64,000 nucleotides of DNA, taken from assembly GCA_002951815.1 (NCBI GenBank), contig CP019454.1:1-64000 (forward strand). The letters are read 5' to 3'. The first letter of the stretch is position 1; each line of letters starts with the position of its first letter. The notes below the pieces were generated by a model. It did not search any database and was not told the DNA's origin. It was given only the letters and a program-made list of their open reading frames with translations. A program made the translations under genes and the position numbers. This document shows, in pieces, positions 9,250-55,491 of the stretch. Source of the DNA: Sulfobacillus thermotolerans (GTDB lineage Bacteria; Bacillota; Sulfobacillia; Sulfobacillales; Sulfobacillaceae).

Positions 9250-9279
9250 ACTATACGATGTATAGTATTTAGCCGTCAA
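9250..9279 (-). promoter_or_regulatory. Thioredoxin promoter with overlapping operator palindrome
   Basis: TTGACG (9279-9274) and TATAGT (9255-9250) are 18 bases apart, upstream of the thioredoxin start. A perfect inverted repeat ACTATAC-GAT-GTATAGT at 9250-9266 covers the -10 box and part of the spacer, so a dimeric repressor bound here would block RNA polymerase. Confidence 0.6.
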
Positions 9280-9517
9280 TCCTTCCAACGAACCGTGCGG
9301 ATAGAGTTGTTCATCACGCCCCCATAGAAGGCCATCTTTGTTAACCGACTCTTCACAGCTTGTTAACCCGATCATCACGCCGCGATCATCATCGCTCGTT
9401 AGCTTTAAATGGAGAACACTGCCAATCATCATACTACCCACGGCAACGTCGTGGGCCTATCCATCAACTTTAAAAGGTAACGAGCCCGTATTCCCTTTGA
9501 CGCTCGATGACAGGAGG

Positions 9518-10943
9518 ATGACACCTTATAAAAAATACGGATGATACTCCGTTTAAGCCCCTTGACTAGTCGCGCTTCAAAGCGTTTCACTGGCGATCCA
9601 TGTTGACCACCGGCATGGGGGTTTTTACTGATGGTTATGACCTCTCTTCCATCGGCATTGTTCTCCCCTTAGTGCTCGCATCATTCGGCATCAAACACTT
9701 GATTGGCTGGGAATCTTCTCTGTTAGTCGCATCGGCGTTGGCAGGGGCCGCCATCGGTGCCTTAATTTTTGGCGTACTGGCCAATAAAGGCCGCAAGACA
9801 TTCTACGGCATCGACATGCTGTTGATGACCGTAGGCGGATTAATGCAGGCCTTCGTTCCGAATATTGGATGGCTGATCGTCGCCCGTATTATTCTTGGCA
9901 TTGGGGCCGGGGCCGATTACGTTCTCTCGCCCCTCATTATGGTCGAACATTCCAATGCCAAAGACCGCGGTAAAACGGTGGCCACAGGATTTGGACTCAT
10001 GTGGGGATTAGGCGCCATTTTAGCCTCACTCGTCTATATGGGGCTGATGGCGGCCGGTGTTCCGCACCCTCTTGTTTGGCGCGTTGCGTTAGGCACCGGG
10101 GCTTTGCCCTCTCTGTCCGTGATGTACCTGCGTCGGCGCGTTCCCGAAACAGCCCGCTATCTCGTCCGAATCGCGGGCGACAATGCCGCTGCCGAATCTG
10201 TCATTGCTAGCGTTGATCAATCCACCCACAACCACACCGCATGGGAAGAGTCCATGTTGCGGGACCAAAAAGGTTTTGGCTATTACTTCGCGACGCATGC
10301 CCGTGAATTCATCATCGCTTCGGTGCTGTGGTTTCTTTTTGACATCGTAGGCTATGCGGGGAACTTGTTTGGCCCCTCGCTGCTCGCTAAAGGTATTGGG
10401 CTGACCGCCGGCACGTTTGGTTTGGTCATGTTTGCCGTGTTTTCGCTGCCAGGCAAAGCCTTGGCTATTGGGCTCATCGACCGCTGGGGGCGCAAGCCTC
10501 TGCAAGTGTGGGGTTCGGTAGGCGAGGTGGTTGCTCTCATCTTATTCATTGCGCTGCACGGCCGCATTATCGCCTTTCCACTGCTCGGTTTGATGATTTA
10601 TGGTGCATATACCCTCACAGGGTCCATGGGCCCTGGCTCAGTGAGCACCGCCGGAATTTTTGGCGTAGAACTTGCTCCGACGCGGGTGCGAAGTCTCGTG
10701 CAAGCCATCACCGTGGCATCTGGCCGCATCGGCGCCACGCTCACATCCTTCGTATTTCCCGTGCTATTCAAACTGTACGGACAGAACTTTGCCGTGGGCT
10801 TCTTAGCCGCTCTTACCGTCATTGCCGCATTGCTGACCGCATGGGGCATTCCCGAAACCAAACAAGCCAGTTTGGAAGACACAGCCCGCGAGTCATTAGG
10901 CGTAAACGCGTCCTTGGCCTATGCCTCCCAACACGATGCCTAA
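9518..10943 (+). pseudogene. MFS permease of the phosphate:H+ symporter type, damaged 5' end
   Basis: The conserved body starts at ATG 9600 (447 residues): TTGMGVFTDGYDLSSIG in TM1, GVLANKGRK, ILGIGAGADYVLSPL, RRRVPETARYL and WGIPETKQASLED. The order of signatures matches the PHS group, like the intact gene at 22717-24102. Upstream codons in the same frame read TDDTPFKPLD-stop-SRFKAFHWRS, which is family-like N-terminal sequence. It is broken by a TAG at 9567-9569. The only good start (AGGAGG then ATG at 9518) is one base out of frame, at a run of six A (9530-9535). So there is one frameshift and one amber codon in the first 30 codons. The protein could still be made from 9600, but no good ribosome binding site precedes that ATG and the cytoplasmic N-terminus would be lost. 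Confidence 0.8.
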
Positions 10944-11170: not shown

Positions 11171-12337
11171 TCAGGCAGACACGGGTGAGGAGCTCCTCAC
11201 CGAACTCTCGGCCACGGTTCGCAAATTAATCGCCGCATTGATGTCGCGGTCGTGGTGTGTGTGACATTCTGGGCACGTCCACTCCCGCATAGCGAGCGGC
11301 ATTTTCGGCATTTTGTATCCACACGCGGAACACGTTTTGCTGCTCGGATACCAACGGCTCACGATGACCACCGTTTTCCCGCATTGGGCCGCTTTGTATG
11401 CGAGTTGCCGACGGAATTCCCCAAAGCCCATATCAGCAATCGCCCGGGCGAGAGGATGATTTTTGAGCATCCCGGCGACGTTCAGGTCCTCGATGGCCAT
11501 GACATCGAAGCGCTGCACGAGATCGGTGGTCAGTTGGTGTAACGCATCCGCCCGGATATTCGCAATCCGCGCATGGCGTCGGGCCATGCGCCGCTGCGTC
11601 TTTCGCATATTCTGGGACAAGGGCATGGGCATCCCTTTCAGGGTGGGCTGGCCGGGCTGAAGCCCGGCGCGGACTTTGGCGACTTCCATCTGGCGACTGA
11701 ATTGTTTCGATAACCGACGAAGCTGTGCCAAGGCGTCCGCATAGGCTTTCGGTCCCACGATCGCCAACGCCGACACGCCCAAATCCACGCCGACTACCGC
11801 TTGGCTTTCGCGGCGGACACTGGGGGGATCGGGAAGTTCGACGGTGACGCTCAAAAACCAGCGATCAGCGGTCCGCGACACGGTGCCTTCTACCACTCTG
11901 CCGATAAATCGCAACGGTTCGTGCATGCGCACCCAGCCTAATTTGGGCATATGCACTTTTTGCCCTTTGACCGTGAATGGGTCGTTGGTGAGCGTAAAGC
12001 TGTCGTGTCGGCCCTTTTTCTTAAACGTGGGATACTCGGCGATCCCCGCAAAGAAATTCTTGAACGCTTGACCCAAGTGCATAATCGCCATCTGGGGGGC
12101 GTTCTTGGTAACCTCCAGCATCCAGGGGAAGGCGGCGCGCTTGAGTGCATTGAGTTGACGCCGCAGAGCGGCTTCGGTCGGCTTGGGCAACGTAGGATCG
12201 GCTTTCCATGCGTCGAACTGTTGTTGCCACTGATCCAAGGCCCCATTGTACGCGAAACGGGCCGTCCCGGCGGCCTTGCGGAAATACGTCTCTTGAACGT
12301 TATTCGGGTCGAGCGCAATCTTATGGGCCAGAATCAT
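11171..12337 (-). CDS. tnpB: TnpB RNA-guided nuclease, with a small internal deletion
   Basis: 388 residues. The RuvC-like catalytic set is visible: Asp in VVGVDLGVSA, Glu in AIEDLNVAGM, a zinc finger CSACGYKMPKMP...CPECH, and Asp in DRDINAAINL. Compared with copy B it lacks seven residues (TLSTGEK) just after the first catalytic Asp and has YNG in place of the YNW motif near the N-terminus. The deletion removes a strand of the RuvC fold, so this copy may be inactive. Its guide would be read from the flank beyond 11019. It overlaps the upstream tnpA by four bases (ATGA). Confidence 0.9.
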   Translation of the reverse strand: MILAHKIALDPNNVQETYFRKAAGTARFAYNGALDQWQQQFDAWKADPTLPKPTEAALRRQLNALKRAAFPWMLEVTKNAPQMAIMHLGQAFKNFFAGIAEYPTFKKKGRHDSFTLTNDPFTVKGQKVHMPKLGWVRMHEPLRFIGRVVEGTVSRTADRWFLSVTVELPDPPSVRRESQAVVGVDLGVSALAIVGPKAYADALAQLRRLSKQFSRQMEVAKVRAGLQPGQPTLKGMPMPLSQNMRKTQRRMARRHARIANIRADALHQLTTDLVQRFDVMAIEDLNVAGMLKNHPLARAIADMGFGEFRRQLAYKAAQCGKTVVIVSRWYPSSKTCSACGYKMPKMPLAMREWTCPECHTHHDRDINAAINLRTVAESSVRSSSPVSA

Positions 12338-12963
12338 GATGACGCCTCCTCCACGGCGTGTTTCACGCCGTCGAGCAATTTTTGGTTCTTGCGGGAGCGG
12401 CTGCCGTAGAGCCGAGCCGAAAACACGGTGATTATTTCGAGGACGTCTTGAGCCAGCTCTTCCTCAAAGGTCGTGTCCTCGCCTTGATTGAGAATCACCA
12501 CCTCCACCTGCTTGGCTTCGCAGATCGCAAAGACGAGCTCCGCCCCAAAGCGCACGAGACGGTCCTTATGGGTCACAACCAGCCGACCGACCCGGTTGGC
12601 GAGGATGTCATTTAAGAGGCGCTTGAGACCCTTTTTGTGATAATTCATCCCGGATCCGAGATCCGCCACGACCTCAAAGGTCCACCCTTGACGGGCACAA
12701 TAGATCTCCAGCACGTGCTTTTGCCGCTCCAGATCGTCTTTCTGGTCGTGGCTCGATACGCGGGCATAGGCGACGGTTTTGCGACGCGGGCTGCGTCGGT
12801 GAAACTGGTCAGGTCGCAACCGGGCCAAGTCGTAACGCCGATACCCACCCGCTGTGCGTTCATCGGGCAACAACGTTCCTTCGTGGTCCCATCGACGTAA
12901 CGTCGATGGGGTCACACCTAAAAATTCCGCCGCTTCACGAATGCCGACAAGTTTTCTATGCAT
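12334..12963 (-). CDS. tnpA: IS607 TnpA serine recombinase
   Basis: 209 residues from the ATG at 12963. An N-terminal MerR-like helix-turn-helix (IREAAEFLGVTPSTLRRWDHEG) precedes a serine-recombinase domain beginning VAYARVSSHDQKDDLERQ, where the first Ser is the nucleophile. LVVTHKDRLVRFG and the C-terminal ARLYGSRSRK are also conserved. A promoter (TTTACC, 18 bases, TATAAT) ends six bases before this ATG, which implies a leaderless mRNA. A TTG further upstream (12978) lies above the -10 box and is unlikely to be the start. This copy has all key residues and is probably active. Confidence 0.92.
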   Translation of the reverse strand: MHRKLVGIREAAEFLGVTPSTLRRWDHEGTLLPDERTAGGYRRYDLARLRPDQFHRRSPRRKTVAYARVSSHDQKDDLERQKHVLEIYCARQGWTFEVVADLGSGMNYHKKGLKRLLNDILANRVGRLVVTHKDRLVRFGAELVFAICEAKQVEVVILNQGEDTTFEEELAQDVLEIITVFSARLYGSRSRKNQKLLDGVKHAVEEASS

Positions 12964-13073
12964 ACCTAAATTATACAATAATGGGTAACCATAGGTAAAC
13001 TTTTAGCAAACTGTTAAAACCCCTTTTTTTACACCCCAATTTGTCCTCAGATGTCCTCCTCGTTATTAAGATT

Positions 13074-13208
13074 TAATCCACAGATTTCTGGATTTTGTGG
13101 ATTACTTGTGGATTGCTTAAAGATTTTCCGCCATATTTAGTGTTCAGCCGACAAATTCGACGACACTATTCACGTATTTTCACCAGATTATCCACAACTT
13201 GTGAACAA
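13074..13208. promoter_or_regulatory. DnaA-box cluster away from the origin
   Basis: Five DnaA-box-like nonamers lie in 135 AT-rich bases: TAATCCACA at 13074-13082 (+), its reverse complement at 13096-13104, CAATCCACA on the minus strand at 13107-13115, a perfect TTATCCACA at 13188-13196 (+), and TTGTTCACA on the minus strand at 13200-13208. There is no coding frame here. The neighbouring IS607 copy ends at 13022. Possible roles are DnaA titration (like the DnaA-box clusters of Bacillus), regulation of the next gene, or an origin fossil of an integrated replicon. Confidence 0.55.
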
Positions 13209-13516
13209 ATGCACAGGCACCAGCTCAAATTATCCCCAATTCCTTGAGCGGTCCTCGTCGGCATTTTGCAGCTTTACAAGACGCTACCGTGGTCCCTCAA
13301 TTTTCTTTGAAGTCCTCACATTACGGGGAAACACGCACTCCTCTTACAACTTTTATAAAACATTAACAACGCCTTCGCATGGCGATAACATTGGCCTGAT
13401 ACAGTGGCACTGAATTCTTCATCATCATGCGTCACTCGTTCCCTCTGCAATACGCGAAAAGAAAGATGGGAAGCCGGCTACACATCCACCCTGTGACAAA
13501 GGAGATGCAGTATTTG

Positions 13517-14494
13517 ATGATAGAAACGGCTCGGTACCGTATTGAACGCTTCGAAGATCATGGCTGGCACATCACAGCCTTATCCGAACCTACGACGTGG
13601 CCTGTCGTATACGTCAGCACCGAACCGGATCCCAGAGCCCTGAACTTTTCTCACTTAGAGCCTTTGCCCTGGAAAGACCATGGCGTGCTGACCATTCGCC
13701 TTAGTCAAAGCATGCGCCATTACGTGCATCTGCACCATGGTGACCACATCGAGACCTTTTCCGACCGCATTGTGCCATTAGAAGGGGGAATTAATTTTCG
13801 GGATTTGGGCGGCTACCGCAATCCCCAAGGGCAAATGGTCCGGTGGGGCACCCTGTATCGTTCTGGCAAGCTAAGTGGGCTAACATCAAGGGATCAGGCC
13901 TATATCCGCCAACTTGGCATTCAAGTCGTTTGTGATTTGCGCAGCGCCCACGAATTGCAGACAGATCCCACACCCCCTGATCTAGCGCCCTCCCTCGCTC
14001 ATCTGCCCCTAAAATTACGCGAGACGTCGTCCGTACCTGGTCATCTTGATCAAGAGACAGCACAAGCGCTATTAAGGGAGAGCTATGAAGCCTTCCCCAC
14101 GTCCTTAGAATCTTACACCGCCTTTTTCCGCACCCTGCTGAATAACGAATCGGGTGCCGTGCTCTTTCATTGCACGGCAGGCAAAGACCGTACAGGCGTC
14201 ACTGCGGCCTTGCTGTTATGGGCCTTAGATATTCCGTGGGATATTATTGTGGAAGATTTTCTGATATCCAATCAATTTAGTGCCCAACTAGCCACCTTAG
14301 TGGCAACTCAAGACAAGACAGTAGGTCCTACTCATCCGCTATGGCCCATGGCCCGCGCCTATCCCGAAAATCTCCGTGCTGCGATTCATGTGATTTTAAA
14401 CGAGTATGGCAATTTAGACCGGTTCTTTACATACGGCTTAGGATTGGATAACGATTGGAAAGATGCACTGCAACACAAATATCTTGTCTCCTGA
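13517..14494 (+). CDS. Tyrosine/dual-specificity phosphatase of the bacterial LipA type
   Basis: About 325 residues. The P-loop HCTAGKDRTG (HCxxGKDRT type of the Y_phosphatase3 family) holds the Cys nucleophile and the Arg. Upstream are the family motifs LEGGINFRDLGGYRN and LYRSGKLSGLT, and a VVCDLRSAHE strand. The N-terminal 100 residues form a beta-rich domain that precedes the catalytic part. AAAGGAG at 13499-13505 fits a TTG at 13517 or ATG at 13520. It has no signal peptide, so it acts in the cytosol. Substrate may be phosphotyrosine proteins or phosphoinositides, as in homologues. Confidence 0.85.
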   Translation: MIETARYRIERFEDHGWHITALSEPTTWPVVYVSTEPDPRALNFSHLEPLPWKDHGVLTIRLSQSMRHYVHLHHGDHIETFSDRIVPLEGGINFRDLGGYRNPQGQMVRWGTLYRSGKLSGLTSRDQAYIRQLGIQVVCDLRSAHELQTDPTPPDLAPSLAHLPLKLRETSSVPGHLDQETAQALLRESYEAFPTSLESYTAFFRTLLNNESGAVLFHCTAGKDRTGVTAALLLWALDIPWDIIVEDFLISNQFSAQLATLVATQDKTVGPTHPLWPMARAYPENLRAAIHVILNEYGNLDRFFTYGLGLDNDWKDALQHKYLVS

Positions 14495-14918: not shown

Positions 14919-15482
14919 TTATACGGGCGTCCACTGCGGATTAATGCGCGCATATAATTGATGATCTTGCCACTGGCCGTTAATATACAAATACTCTCGG
15001 GCCAGGCCAATAAACACGAAGCGATTTCGCGTAATGACCCCGATAGACGCATAATTGCCCGGCATGATGGCCGCTTGAACGCGGTGCAGACCAATTCTCT
15101 CAAAAGCCATGCGAACCACGGCGTCTACGGCCCTGGTCATGATGCCCTTGCGGGTCCATTCCCCATCCATCATATAACCAATATCGGCACTGTAAAAGGC
15201 GCCTCGTACTACGTTGTTCAGGTTAACCCAACCGATAAGGTCATTGTTCTGGGAGAAAATTCCCCAAGGATAGCGCAGACCCTGAGTCTGTTCTTGACTA
15301 AATTGTGTTAAAAGAGCCTGCTGCGTCTTGACCTCAAACAGCCTCGCATCTAAGGGGGGCATAAAAGGTGTTAAAAAGGCCGCATTCTTTTGAAGAAATT
15401 GTGCGCGCCGACCCGCATCATCTGGCGTGAGCAAGCGCAGATAGACGCCATGGTCCAAATCGGCTTCTAGGTTCATCGACAC
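14919..15482 (-). CDS. GNAT acetyltransferase, RimJ/RimL type
   Basis: 187 residues with the GNAT fold. Strand-loop features LRLLTPDDAGRRAQFL, LIGWVNLNNVVRGAFYSADIGYMM, the acetyl-CoA region EWTRKGIMTRAVDAVVRMAF and LHRVQAAIMPGNYASIGV match N-terminal or ribosomal-protein alanine acetyltransferases. The pyrophosphate loop has WTRKGIM where many family members have a Q/RxxGxG/A. The start is the GTG at 15482, or the ATG two codons later; AGGGAGAGG precedes both. It lies eight bases downstream of the small membrane gene at 15491-15829 and is likely co-transcribed. Confidence 0.88.
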   Translation of the reverse strand: MSMNLEADLDHGVYLRLLTPDDAGRRAQFLQKNAAFLTPFMPPLDARLFEVKTQQALLTQFSQEQTQGLRYPWGIFSQNNDLIGWVNLNNVVRGAFYSADIGYMMDGEWTRKGIMTRAVDAVVRMAFERIGLHRVQAAIMPGNYASIGVITRNRFVFIGLAREYLYINGQWQDHQLYARINPQWTPV

Positions 15483-15829: not shown

Positions 15830-16081
15830 GTCCAAGTGTCGTCCCCCTCTCCATTTCGCGCCCCTATAGCCCATGTGATTCCATCTGAGAAGAGCATATC
15901 ATGACGCGTTTGTCTGGGGGCGAGACGAAGGGTAGAGTAAGAAAAATTTGAGCACCGCACACGCCATAGGGGGCTGAAAAACCTTAACCGCGTATTTATC
16001 CGTATTTCATATTCTTCGGGTATGATAGGACTGTATGTCAAATTATGTCCTTGTCGCGCAGGCAACAAGGCAAAGGAGTCG

Positions 16082-16906
16082 ATGAACGTGCCTTTGGGCA
16101 GTGCGGCATTGTTAGGGATTATTCAAGGGTTTGCAGAACTTTTTCCTTTTTCCAGCTTAGGCCTGTTGGTCATCTTGCCTCATATCGTTCACTTGAATGT
16201 GCCAACCCAAGGGGCCCGCTACCTACCATTTCTTGTCGCGTTGCACCTTGGCACCGCTGTTGCCTTGCTGTTACTCTTTCGCCACGAATGGATCGCCGTG
16301 GTTCGTGGATGGTTTCTCTGGCTAAAAGGCCAACACACCCCTGATGGGCGTATGGCTTGGATGTTGATTTGGGCCACCATTCCCGTAGGTTTGGTAGGAC
16401 TGGCCCTCAAGCACCCCTTGGCTCATTTGTTTTCAAAGCCCCTGATGGCCGCCATATTTCTGGTCGTCAACGGCTTGCTCATGTTGCTAGGAGATGCCTG
16501 GCACAAAAAATACCGCAGGCACCCCTTGCCGATGTCTCAAATGAGCATGGGCACCGCTGTCAAAATCGGCCTCTTTCAAATCCTAGCCCTAATCCCGGGC
16601 ATGTCTCGGTCGGGATCCACCATGACAGGGGCGGTGGGGCAAGGTCTATCGTTTGAAGATGCCGCCCACTTCAGCTTTTTGCTGGCTACGCCAATTATCT
16701 TCGCGGCCGCTTTGGTTGAATTGCCCAAACTGCACTCGGGTACCCACAGTCTCATGATTCCCGCGCTGTTTGGCGGCGTTATCGCCGGTATTACCGCATG
16801 GTTGTCGGCCCGCTTCCTCTTGCGGTATTTTCAAGTCCACAATCTCTTTCGCCTCGCCATCATTTCTATGGCCGTGGGTGTTATTGGCATTATTCTTGTT
16901 CATTGA
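16082..16906 (+). CDS. uppP: Undecaprenyl-diphosphatase UppP/BacA-like
   Basis: 274 residues, about eight membrane helices. It removes a phosphate from undecaprenyl diphosphate so the lipid carrier can be reused for cell wall and glycan synthesis. The second catalytic motif is normal (PGMSRSGSTMTGAV near residue 170, with Arg). The first is unusual: GIIQGFAELFPFSSLGLL. The leading Glu of the ExxxE motif is Gln, and the His that normally follows SSxG is Leu. AAAGGAG precedes the ATG at 16082 by three bases, so a GTG at 16088 is an alternative. It could be a divergent subfamily with a different active-site geometry. Confidence 0.85.
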   Translation: MNVPLGSAALLGIIQGFAELFPFSSLGLLVILPHIVHLNVPTQGARYLPFLVALHLGTAVALLLLFRHEWIAVVRGWFLWLKGQHTPDGRMAWMLIWATIPVGLVGLALKHPLAHLFSKPLMAAIFLVVNGLLMLLGDAWHKKYRRHPLPMSQMSMGTAVKIGLFQILALIPGMSRSGSTMTGAVGQGLSFEDAAHFSFLLATPIIFAAALVELPKLHSGTHSLMIPALFGGVIAGITAWLSARFLLRYFQVHNLFRLAIISMAVGVIGIILVH

Positions 16907-31017: not shown

Positions 31018-31149
31018 CGCGGCCATTTGGTAAATGTATGGCCTGACCACCAATAGCCATTCATCACGAAATTTCGGACACTGGTGTTTCGTAAAAGAGA
31101 GTGCAGGGTTTTAACAGTTTGCTAAAAGTTTACCTATGGTTACTCATTA

Positions 31150-31794
31150 TTGTATAATTTAGGTAGGCATAGAAAACTTGTCGGCATTCGTGAAGCGGCG
31201 GAATTTTTAGGTGTGACCCCATCGACGTTACGTCGATGGGACCACGAAGGAACGTTGTTGCCCGATGAACGCACAGCGGGTGGGTATCGGCGTTACGACT
31301 TGGCCCGGTTGCGACCTGACCAGTTTCACCGACGCAGCCCGCCTCGCAAAACCGTCGCCTATGCCCGCGTATCAAGCCACGACCAGAAAGACGATCTGGA
31401 GCGGCAAAAGCACGTGCTGGAGATCTATTGTGCCCGTCAAGGGTGGACCTTTGAGGTCGTGGCGGATCTCGGATCCGGGATGAATTATCACAAAAAGGGT
31501 CTCAAGCGCCTCTTAAATGACATCCTCGCCGACCGGGTCGGTCGGCTGGTTGTGACCCATAAGGACCGTCTCGTGCGCTTTGGGGCGGAGCTCGTCTTTG
31601 CGATCTGCGAAGCCAAGCAGGTGGAGGTGGTGATTCTCAATCAAGGCGAGGACACGACCTTTGAGGAAGAGCTGGCTCAAGACGTCCTCGAAATAATCAC
31701 CGTGTTTTCGGCTCGGCTCTACGACAGCCGCTCCCGCAAGAACCAAAAATTGCTCGACGGCGTGAAACACGCCGTGGAGGAGGCGTCATCATGA
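31150..31794 (+). pseudogene. tnpA: IS607 TnpA with mutated start codon
   Basis: The frame is intact and carries the recombinase motifs (VAYARVSSHDQKDD, THKDRLVRFG). However, the codon equal to copy A's start ATG is AGG here (31165-31167). The promoter, TTTACC at 31129-31134 and TATAAT at 31153-31158, ends six bases before it, so a leaderless transcript would have no start codon. The TTG at 31150 lies upstream of the -10 box and would not be transcribed from this promoter. The conserved ARLYGSRS has become ARLYDSRS. This TnpA is probably not made or is defective. Confidence 0.7.
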
Positions 31795-37748: not shown

Positions 37749-38114
37749 GACCCTGTCCTTTCGCACTGTCTCGGACAGTATAATGACCCAGAAATTGCTG
37801 AGTTATCCACACATTGTGCACATCATCATGCATTTCGATCATTTCCGGATTTGGTCCTTGCCTTTACTCAGGCCATTATCGTAGTGGATACCGGTCTTAA
37901 GCGGCAAGCAGTTGCATAATGTCAAGTTCTCCCATCTTTTACATTCAGATGATTTGGGGACTCAAGGACACTAAACCACCCACGATCTGGTCCAAGGGCA
38001 GACAAGGACTGGCGGCAAACGATCGTTTCCACGGTGCCCGAACCCATAAATTTTTTCGCCTTAGAACTTTTTTCTATGGAATCCATATTATGGCCATTAA
38101 GGAGGGATTTGACA
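37749..38114. other. Divergent intergenic region with one DnaA box
   Basis: The gap separates the leftward glycan operon and the rightward peptidoglycan-binding gene. A perfect DnaA box TTATCCACA is at 37803-37811, close to the likely promoter of the flavoprotein (TATAAT-like ATTATA near 37780-37785 on the minus strand). No gene is seen. Confidence 0.5.
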
Positions 38115-53625: not shown

Positions 53626-53926
53626 TAAGGTGGTCTCCTCCCGGTAGGGTTTTTTGAGATGGGTGAGCGACTTTCGTAGCCCACTTATGATTAAGATTCT
53701 TTTTTTGTCTTTTTTCCGTAGTCATAATAAGGGCTGGGGATAATCTGGATAAGTGTCCGCAGCCCTTATGTCATCAGGCGATGGGGCGCAAAATAATTCT
53801 GAATAACCTCTGGATCGACACGGGGAGAATTGGGGATGATTTTTGTGTCTGATGGTGTAGTTGTGTATTACCTGTTGTTGTTCCACAATTAACCCCCCGT
53901 TTTTTCACCATTTATCCCCAAGCTTT
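53626..53926. promoter_or_regulatory. dnaA-dnaN intergenic region, part of oriC
   Basis: It holds DnaA-box-like nonamers: two adjoining on the minus strand at 53735-53743 (TTATCCCCA) and 53744-53752 (TTATCCAGA), TAATACACA on the minus strand at 53862-53870, and TTATCCCCA at 53913-53921 (+). An AT-rich tract at about 53688-53730 next to the tandem boxes is a candidate unwinding element. Confidence 0.65.
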
Positions 53927-55312
53927 TCAGCGCGATTTGATCCGTTTTGAGATGGCTTCGAGAATTTGTGCGAGTTGGGCATCTTCGTGTCGTTCCCGGT
54001 CGATTTTTTCGCAAGCATGAATTACAGTGGTGTGGTCGCGTCCGCCAAATTCCTCACCGATTCTTGGGAGGCTGGCGTCCGTCAAGCTGCGTGCAATATA
54101 CATGGCGACTTGCCGGGGAAATGCCACCGCGCGCGTGCGTTTTTTGGCCTTGAGATCTTCGACACGCATGTCAAAGTGTTTCGCCACTTCTTCTTGGATA
54201 AGGCGGATGGTGATCGCTTTCGGACGCGAATTGGGTATAACGTCTTTTAGCGCTTCCATCGCCAATTCTGCTGTCAAAGATTGGCGGGTGATAGATCCAT
54301 AGGCCATGACACGAATGAGAGCCCCTTCGAGTTCCCGAATGTTGGTGTCGATGCGCGCAGCAATAAACTGGAGGACGCTGTCGGGCACTTGCAAATCTTC
54401 CAGTTGGGCTTTTTTGGCTAAAATTGCAATACGGGTTTCGAGATCTGGGGGCTGGATATCGGTGATTAAACCCCACTCGAATCGTGACCGTAGGCGCTCT
54501 TCAAGGGTTGGGATATCTTTAGGAGGACGGTCGCTCGATATGACGATTTGCTTATGGGCCCCGTGTAAGGCTTCAAAAGTGTGGAAAAATTCTTCTTGGG
54601 TGCGTTCTTTGCCTGCGACGAATTGAATATCGTCAATCAAGAGGACATCAATGTTCCGGTAACGTTGTCGAAACCGAACCATTTTGTCGTCGCGAATGGC
54701 GTTGATCATTTCGTTGGTAAAATTTTCTGAGGAAACGTACAGAACACGAGCTTCTCGGTTGACGGATAGAACTTGATGCCCTATCGCGTGCATTAAGTGG
54801 GTTTTGCCAAGACCCACGCCGCCATAGAGAAATAGTGGATTATAGGCTCGTGCTGGCATTTCAGCGACGGCCTGGCAAGCAGCATGGGCGAAGCGGTTAG
54901 AGACTCCAACGACAAAGGCTTCGAACACGTACTTGGGGTTAAGACGAGTATGAAATTCCGACTCTTGGGGCTCTGGCGCAGACTCCTTAGGCGCGGGCCG
55001 AACCGATTGGGGCGGAGGAATGGGTACAGGCTTTTCCTCGTCAAGTGTTTCCGGCGCTTTGGGTGTCAGCACAAGGTGTACCTCGATCGGGCGTCCAGCA
55101 GACTTGGTCAGCACGTCGCGGAGCAATCCAGCATAGCGGCTGGCAATAATTTGGCGGACGAAATCACTGGGTACGGCCAAGTCAAGTACGCCATCATCCA
55201 AAGAGAGTGGGAAGACTTGACGCACCCACGTCTCCATACTGGGTGTGGATAACTCGCTTTCCAGACGAGCCACAGTATCCGCCCACAGGCCTTCTAAACC
55301 GACCTCCAGCAT
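53927..55312 (-). CDS. dnaA: Chromosomal replication initiator DnaA
   Basis: 461 residues from ATG 55312 with GGGGGA about nine bases upstream. Domain I (1-80) has WVRQVFPLSL, domain II is a short Pro-rich linker (90-115), and domain III is the AAA+ ATPase with Walker A GGVGLGKTHL (163-172), Walker B VLLIDDIQF and sensor IVISSDRPPKD. Domain IV carries the DnaA signature GGRDHTTVIHACEKI near 425-440, canonical for TTATNCACA binding. A perfect DnaA box on the minus strand (55244-55252) lies in its 5' coding part. Confidence 0.98.
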   Translation of the reverse strand: MLEVGLEGLWADTVARLESELSTPSMETWVRQVFPLSLDDGVLDLAVPSDFVRQIIASRYAGLLRDVLTKSAGRPIEVHLVLTPKAPETLDEEKPVPIPPPQSVRPAPKESAPEPQESEFHTRLNPKYVFEAFVVGVSNRFAHAACQAVAEMPARAYNPLFLYGGVGLGKTHLMHAIGHQVLSVNREARVLYVSSENFTNEMINAIRDDKMVRFRQRYRNIDVLLIDDIQFVAGKERTQEEFFHTFEALHGAHKQIVISSDRPPKDIPTLEERLRSRFEWGLITDIQPPDLETRIAILAKKAQLEDLQVPDSVLQFIAARIDTNIRELEGALIRVMAYGSITRQSLTAELAMEALKDVIPNSRPKAITIRLIQEEVAKHFDMRVEDLKAKKRTRAVAFPRQVAMYIARSLTDASLPRIGEEFGGRDHTTVIHACEKIDRERHEDAQLAQILEAISKRIKSR

Positions 55313-55491
55313 GAAACAATTCCCCCTAATATACACAAGAAGTCCACAAAGTTATCCACAGTTTGTTGATAACTTTCCTATAAATAATGAATGCCTCCGA
55401 ACCCGGAGGAGTTGTTTTATCATAACAAATTCGGACAGGGCTCTCAACGAACAAGGCAGGTAAAACCCGGCCTGTGGAAAAAATCCCTTTC
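55313..55491. promoter_or_regulatory. dnaA-rpmH intergenic region, origin-side DnaA boxes
   Basis: A perfect TTATCCACA at 55352-55360 (+) and a near-match TTATCAACA on the minus strand at 55364-55372 lie close to dnaA, together with the perfect box at 55244-55252. Gene direction switches here from leftward to rightward, as expected at oriC. The dnaA promoter must be here, so the boxes allow autoregulation. Confidence 0.7.

Follow-up and report, generated by a model that had tools for sequence, protein, structure and literature searches.

Why does the chromosome of the acid-loving bacterium Sulfobacillus thermotolerans Kr1 carry a dense group of DnaA-box-like sites some 40 kb from its replication origin? 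A reading of the sequence alone had noted, in the first 64 kb of the 3,317,203-bp chromosome (the window, meaning the whole stretch of DNA that was analyzed), five such sites, one of them perfect, in 135 noncoding bp beside a copy of IS607, and had proposed either a titration or regulatory cluster or the origin of an integrated plasmid. The observation was confirmed in each of its parts. The first interpretation gained from the finding that the cluster is conserved, at one position, in all eight genus genomes compared (G000, which is Kr1, to G007), and the second did not survive. On balance, we favor the interpretation that this is an oriC-proximal cluster of DnaA boxes that binds DnaA and delays initiation. 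Elements of this kind have been described before, and this one is a new instance.

We scored boxes by their mismatches to the consensus, TTATNCACA. By this measure the cluster (positions 13074 to 13208) holds five box-like sites, four of them with at most one mismatch and one perfect, arranged as a left module (boxes A, B, and C), a 72-bp spacer, and a right module (boxes D and E). Box A (13074 to 13082, plus strand) and box B (13096 to 13104, minus strand) both read TAATCCACA, with one mismatch; they are inverted relative to each other, with 13 bp between them, and together form a perfect inverted repeat. Box C (13107 to 13115, CAATCCACA, two mismatches) is on the same strand as box B, 11 bp away start to start. 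Box D (13188 to 13196, plus strand) is a perfect TTATCCACA, and box E (13200 to 13208, minus strand), which reads TTGTTCACA, has one mismatch; these two stand head to head with a 3-bp gap. Thus, at the 5′ end three of the five boxes (TAATCCACA and CAATCCACA) depart from TTATNCACA, and a fourth (TTGTTCACA) is one base off. A weak, poorly conserved site with two mismatches lies in the spacer at 13166 to 13174 (plus strand, CTATTCACG), and an additional box-like site with one mismatch, TTATCCCCA, is found beyond the cluster at 13230 (plus strand). Because a check of the open reading frames gave no plausible gene in 13074 to 13208, the cluster is taken to be noncoding; its GC content is 37%, compared with 42% locally.

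The density of these boxes is nonrandom. We sampled 544 kb of the Kr1 chromosome, made up of the window, 80 kb of flanking sequence, and 20 stretches of 20 kb each, evenly spaced, and counted clusters from boxes with at most one mismatch, of which there were 369. At least four boxes per 150 bp occurred at three places only: the cluster itself and positions 53735 to 53870 and 55244 to 55372, which are the halves of the ordinary bipartite oriC around dnaA. In the 400 kb of spaced stretches there were no clusters with at least four boxes, and one (by a strict rule) or two (by a looser rule) with three. When the local 404 bp were resampled 20,000 times by a first-order procedure, at least four boxes fell within 135 bp in a fraction of 0.00035 of the resamples. 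Given these two results, the possibility that random AT-rich intergenic DNA of this genome has a similar density of near-boxes fails. Across the whole genome there were 93 perfect TTATNCACA sites, versus 60 matches to a reversed-pattern control. Ten of the 93 were no more than 50 kb from dnaA, where 2.8 were expected (Poisson probability, 0.0007), an enrichment that is only suggestive because several of the others among these ten sit within long open frames.

The position of the cluster is kept as well. In Kr1, dnaA (53927 to 55336, minus strand) begins 40.7 kb away and has the ordinary bipartite oriC on both sides, with weaker boxes between dnaA and dnaN (53735 to 53920) and, upstream of dnaA, a head-to-head pair (55352 to 55372, plus strand). 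This pair has the layout of boxes D and E, which recurs at the dnaA promoter as TTATC(A/C)ACA n3 TGTGGATAA, in a comparison of dnaA flanks that leaves out G011. The distance from dnaA to the cluster is 35.4 kb in G003 and 24.5 kb in G004; it was measured in these three of the eight genomes, the other five having the two loci on separate contigs or no dnaA found. In all three, the cluster is downstream of dnaA and in the same relative orientation. In G003 and G004 the cumulative GC skew reaches its minimum in the 2-kb bin at dnaA, and in G000 it does so no more than about 6 kb from the gene; the skew does not turn at the cluster, which is thus not at the GC-skew origin.

Sampled in 20-kb stretches, the Kr1 chromosome showed positive GC skew between about 44 kb and 2.39 Mb, with one exception at 150 kb; the skew had fallen to near zero by 2.55 Mb, and from 2.71 Mb it was negative all the way to the origin. 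From this pattern of signs, the two replichores of Kr1 appear highly unequal, at about 2.5 and 0.8 Mb.

The cluster is not carried by the neighboring IS607-type insertion sequence (at least 11174 to 13023, minus strand; tnpA, 12337 to 12978; tnpB, 11174 to 12337), the right end of which, at about 13023, is 51 bp outside it. When positions 12950 to 13440 were used as a query, 17 other places in the genome matched just the first 72 to 80 bases, and the five copies compared stop at or near 13023. The neighboring copy is a later insertion, incidental to the element and outside it. Eighteen near-identical IS607-type right ends are present in Kr1, including those at 12950 to 13026 and 31106 to 31178 of the window.

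On its other side, the Kr1 cluster adjoins a Y_phosphatase3 gene (13427 to 14494, plus strand), which accompanies the cluster in only one other genome, G001, where it is further off; a search of the genome contigs for loci related to this gene found none. Beyond it are a GNAT acetyltransferase gene (14922 to 15482, minus strand) and a UppP/BacA gene (16022 to 16906, plus strand), both of which are syntenic markers in the genus. In G002 to G006 the genes by the cluster are, in order, UppP, a small ORF, GNAT, and an unannotated gene of ∼250 amino acids, here called X, the 5′ end of which faces the cluster; the order in G007 is nearly the same, with GNAT not found. UppP, the small ORF, and GNAT are kept in Kr1, where the window yielded no recognizable X (best tblastn E value, 0.037). 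In G001, GNAT and X are on the cluster contig and UppP is on another, and X is 3.3 kb from the cluster, behind other genes. The genes on the opposite side of the cluster vary by species. Copies of X are at 9263 to 10000 of stretch L049, 9090 to 9830 of L050, 10884 to 11636 of L052, and 8623 to 9381 of L053; the gene is fast evolving, and the two members tested had no Pfam family.

When 60 relatives were searched at the DNA level with positions 13020 to 13470 as the query, the six fuller genus genomes gave matches to the cluster: 87% identity over 146 bp in G001, 70% over some 140 bp in both G003 and G004, and about 90% over 40 to 44 bp in G002, G005, and G006. The cluster of G007, the genome of which is 61% complete, was missed by this search (E value, 0.29) and recovered with a left-module pattern, which matched exactly one site, with no mismatches, in each of the eight genus genomes (second matches overlapped this site on the opposite strand). 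In the eight-way alignment, 41 of the 45 columns in boxes A to E are invariant, versus 16 of 90 between the boxes and, in the flanks, 5 of 95 (Fisher P = 5.6e-17, a test that ignores relatedness). Boxes D and E and the core ATCCACA of box C are invariant in all eight genomes; box A in G007 is TTATCCACA. Between Kr1 and G001, 1 of 45 box columns and 18 of 90 other columns differ (P = 0.0037), and between Kr1 and G007 the corresponding counts are 3 of 45 and 46 of 80; the closest pair, G003 and G004, with 0 of 45 and 3 of 80 differences (P = 0.55), is uninformative. These patterns argue that boxes A to E are under selection. A sixth box just after E (13211 to 13219, minus strand), TTATCCTCA or close to it, is present in six of the eight genomes and missing in G000 and G001.

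Outside the genus, the left-module pattern matched 1 of the other 34 genomes of the order (42 in all), with three mismatches, and the reversed-pattern control also gave one match. Among 397 other genomes of the phylum, seven had the left module with at most two mismatches, none with zero or one, and several of these matches contain TGTGGATAAC-TGTGGAT runs, an ordinary type of box. All 42 genomes of the order have UppP matches; the UppP neighborhoods of 16 genomes from other genera of the family were compared, and they contained neither the neighboring genes nor the cluster. There are two perfect boxes in tandem at a weak match in G019 (L023; E value, 2e-4) and one site in G011 (E value, 0.005). 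The surroundings of oriC in G011 and G035 contained no comparable cluster, so the element is not general to the order.

Two other DnaA-box sites were seen. One, at 288878 to 288898 of the Kr1 chromosome (G000:C1; about 7878 to 7898 of L184, and also in L185 to L191), is a second conserved site, consisting of TTATCCACA n3 TGTG(T/C)ACAA in all eight genus genomes, followed by TGTGTACA in all eight. On one side of it is a YabQ-like gene, and on the other, in a row, are HTH (sigma region 4-like), DivIC-like, and S1-domain genes, the DivIC-like assignment being below the cutoff; its position suggests that DnaA may control a set of division and sporulation genes. The other, at 37803 to 37823 of the window, is a near head-to-head pair, TTATCCACA CAT TGTGCACAT, between divergent amine oxidase-like and peptidoglycan-binding genes; it had no match in the relatives' stretches tested.

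What might the cluster do? Five probable sites are nearly unchanged, in the same place, in all relatives examined within the genus, and so the cluster probably limits the timing of DNA copying. Judged from the boxes, DnaA is very probably its ligand, and the DnaA protein carries its HTH domain (PF08299). That the cluster acts as a brake on initiation is less certain and is argued by analogy, although we consider it the probable function, and we infer simple titration rather than nucleotide switching. DnaA would occupy five to six boxes in two modules, one with A inverted to B and with B and C one helical turn apart and the other with D and E head to head, and several molecules would be stored. 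Because the cluster is 25 to 41 kb from oriC, it would be doubled soon after each initiation, and this early doubling would enable it at once to draw DnaA from the new origins. The DnaA drawn off would probably be ATP-DnaA, and reinitiation would be delayed. Against this interpretation, a single cluster is a small sink beside the boxes of oriC itself, four of the boxes deviate from TTATNCACA and are predicted sites, and the cluster does not occur generally in the order.

In B. subtilis, YabA is a brake on initiation. YabA (PF06156) had no match in any of the 42 genomes of the order, in a search whose control found the YabA proteins of B. subtilis and L. lactis. The genome also has genes for ParA and ParB. 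A second PF00308 match, the only other one in the genome, proved to be an IstB-type ATPase and not Hda-like.

The cluster can be compared with several known systems. It lies downstream of dnaA, unlike the B. subtilis region between trmE and jag, which we take to be on the other side of dnaA. That region, which is among those listed as binding DnaA strongly in vitro (PMC4447404, Table 1), is also multibox and near oriC, with four sites in 300 bp, and submicromolar Kd values are given for the strongest of the B. subtilis regions (PMC4447404). B. subtilis is also described as having six DnaA-box clusters outside oriC, attributed to Okumura et al. 2012 (via PMC5295017, PMC13220808, and PMC4585315); a strain without them initiates early, and the effect is strong only if all six have been removed and is partly relieved when one is restored (PMC5295017, PMC13220808). 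The Sulfobacillus cluster resembles these in being a noncoding group of boxes of the same consensus, denser than background, outside oriC, and near it, as some of the six are. It differs in that there is one dense cluster in the 544 kb sampled rather than six, in its gene context, and in the failure to find YabA in the order. A Streptomyces coelicolor cluster, also near oriC, is said to repress untimely initiation (Smulczyk-Krawczyszyn et al. 2006; PMC4585315, PMC5742627); it belongs to a different phylum, and the likeness to ours is one of description. Both the B. subtilis and the Streptomyces clusters have been likened to datA (PMC4585315, PMC5742627). E. coli datA, DARS1, and DARS2 share with the Sulfobacillus cluster a noncoding, multibox makeup, conserved boxes with variable spacers, and a conserved distance from oriC, whereas datA and DARS2 are reported to depend on IHF/Fis (PMC4585315, PMC5295017). 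A remark in PMC5295017 that brings in E. coli tempers the analogy with the B. subtilis clusters.

DnaA regulates sda and its own gene, dnaA, from bound sites, and the main rival to a brake on initiation is that the cluster is a DnaA-controlled promoter element regulating a neighbor, ancestrally gene X. The start of X is about 0.2 to 0.4 kb from the cluster in six of the eight genomes, so in these six DnaA may control X; the sixth box is missing exactly in the two species in which X is absent or displaced; and triplets of DnaA boxes lie upstream of dnaA and the YabQ/DivIC/YabR locus in the genus. However, boxes A to E are constrained in G000 and G001 even though X was undetected in the former and is displaced in the latter, which speaks against a need for X. 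In addition, the distance to X varies, the intervening sequence is little conserved, and the genes on the other side change from species to species. We regard gene control as unlikely, although it is the strongest competitor to an oriC-proximal brake.

Still less probable is a more ambitious version of the brake, in which a genus-specific, two-module cluster would be the main control of initiation in YabA-less Sulfobacillus; it would take up or inactivate DnaA once duplicated, without IHF or YabA, through an ordered, helically phased DnaA assembly. Helical phasing also bears on whether the cluster is a nucleotide switch like datA or DARS, on which assembled DnaA would hydrolyze ATP or release ADP. 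Boxes C and D are separated by 62 bp in five genomes, by 64 bp in G006, and by 72 bp in G000 and G001, and a step of 10 bp is about one helical turn, but it is a single event shared by two sister species, and the spacing in G006 does not fit it. The number and mixed orientation of the boxes are also like those of the E. coli elements (three boxes in the DARS core and five in datA [PMC4585315]). On the other hand, datA is reported to require IHF (PMC5295017, PMC4585315), and B. subtilis is described as having no known regulator of the DnaA nucleotide state (PMC5295017). We regard a nucleotide switch as improbable.

That the boxes merely resemble DnaA boxes and instead bind a different protein, or form a hairpin in RNA, is very unlikely. 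Boxes A and B do form a perfect inverted repeat, and DnaA as the ligand is a prediction; but box D matches the DnaA consensus exactly, the layout of D and E recurs at the dnaA promoter, and the changes at A and B in G007 break full complementarity. A search of Rfam gave a single chance match, under the gathering score.

Least probable of all is a second chromosomal origin, or the remnant of one or of an integrated plasmid's origin: dense boxes, low GC content, and, in Kr1, an AT-rich stretch on the left side would fit, but GC skew places oriC at or near dnaA, no AT-rich unwinding tract is common to all species (the lowest 40-bp GC fraction in the G001 flanks is 0.475 on both sides), no plasmid replication gene was recognized among the neighbors tested (MFS, Y_phosphatase3, GNAT, UppP, IS607, or genes without a Pfam match), and the same site, with its boxes but not its flanks conserved, is common to every species of the genus examined. 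The integrated plasmid-like region published for Kr1 comprises other ORFs, BXT84_00415 to BXT84_00865 (PMC6803676), and by this numbering appears to lie outside the window.

We found no paper on this site in the open-license literature searched for Sulfobacillus DnaA and replication origins, and the main-text passages of the Kr1 genome paper (PMC6803676) make no mention of dnaA, oriC, or an origin. If an oriC-proximal brake is the correct interpretation, the use of DnaA-box clusters near oriC as brakes would extend to the Sulfobacillus lineage, in an order in which YabA was not found. The element is well delimited, at 135 bp, and its pattern of conservation points to the bases to mutate. Such a compact site would thus allow one to ask cleanly whether titration is sufficient by itself to time replication in a bacterium of the Gram-positive type.
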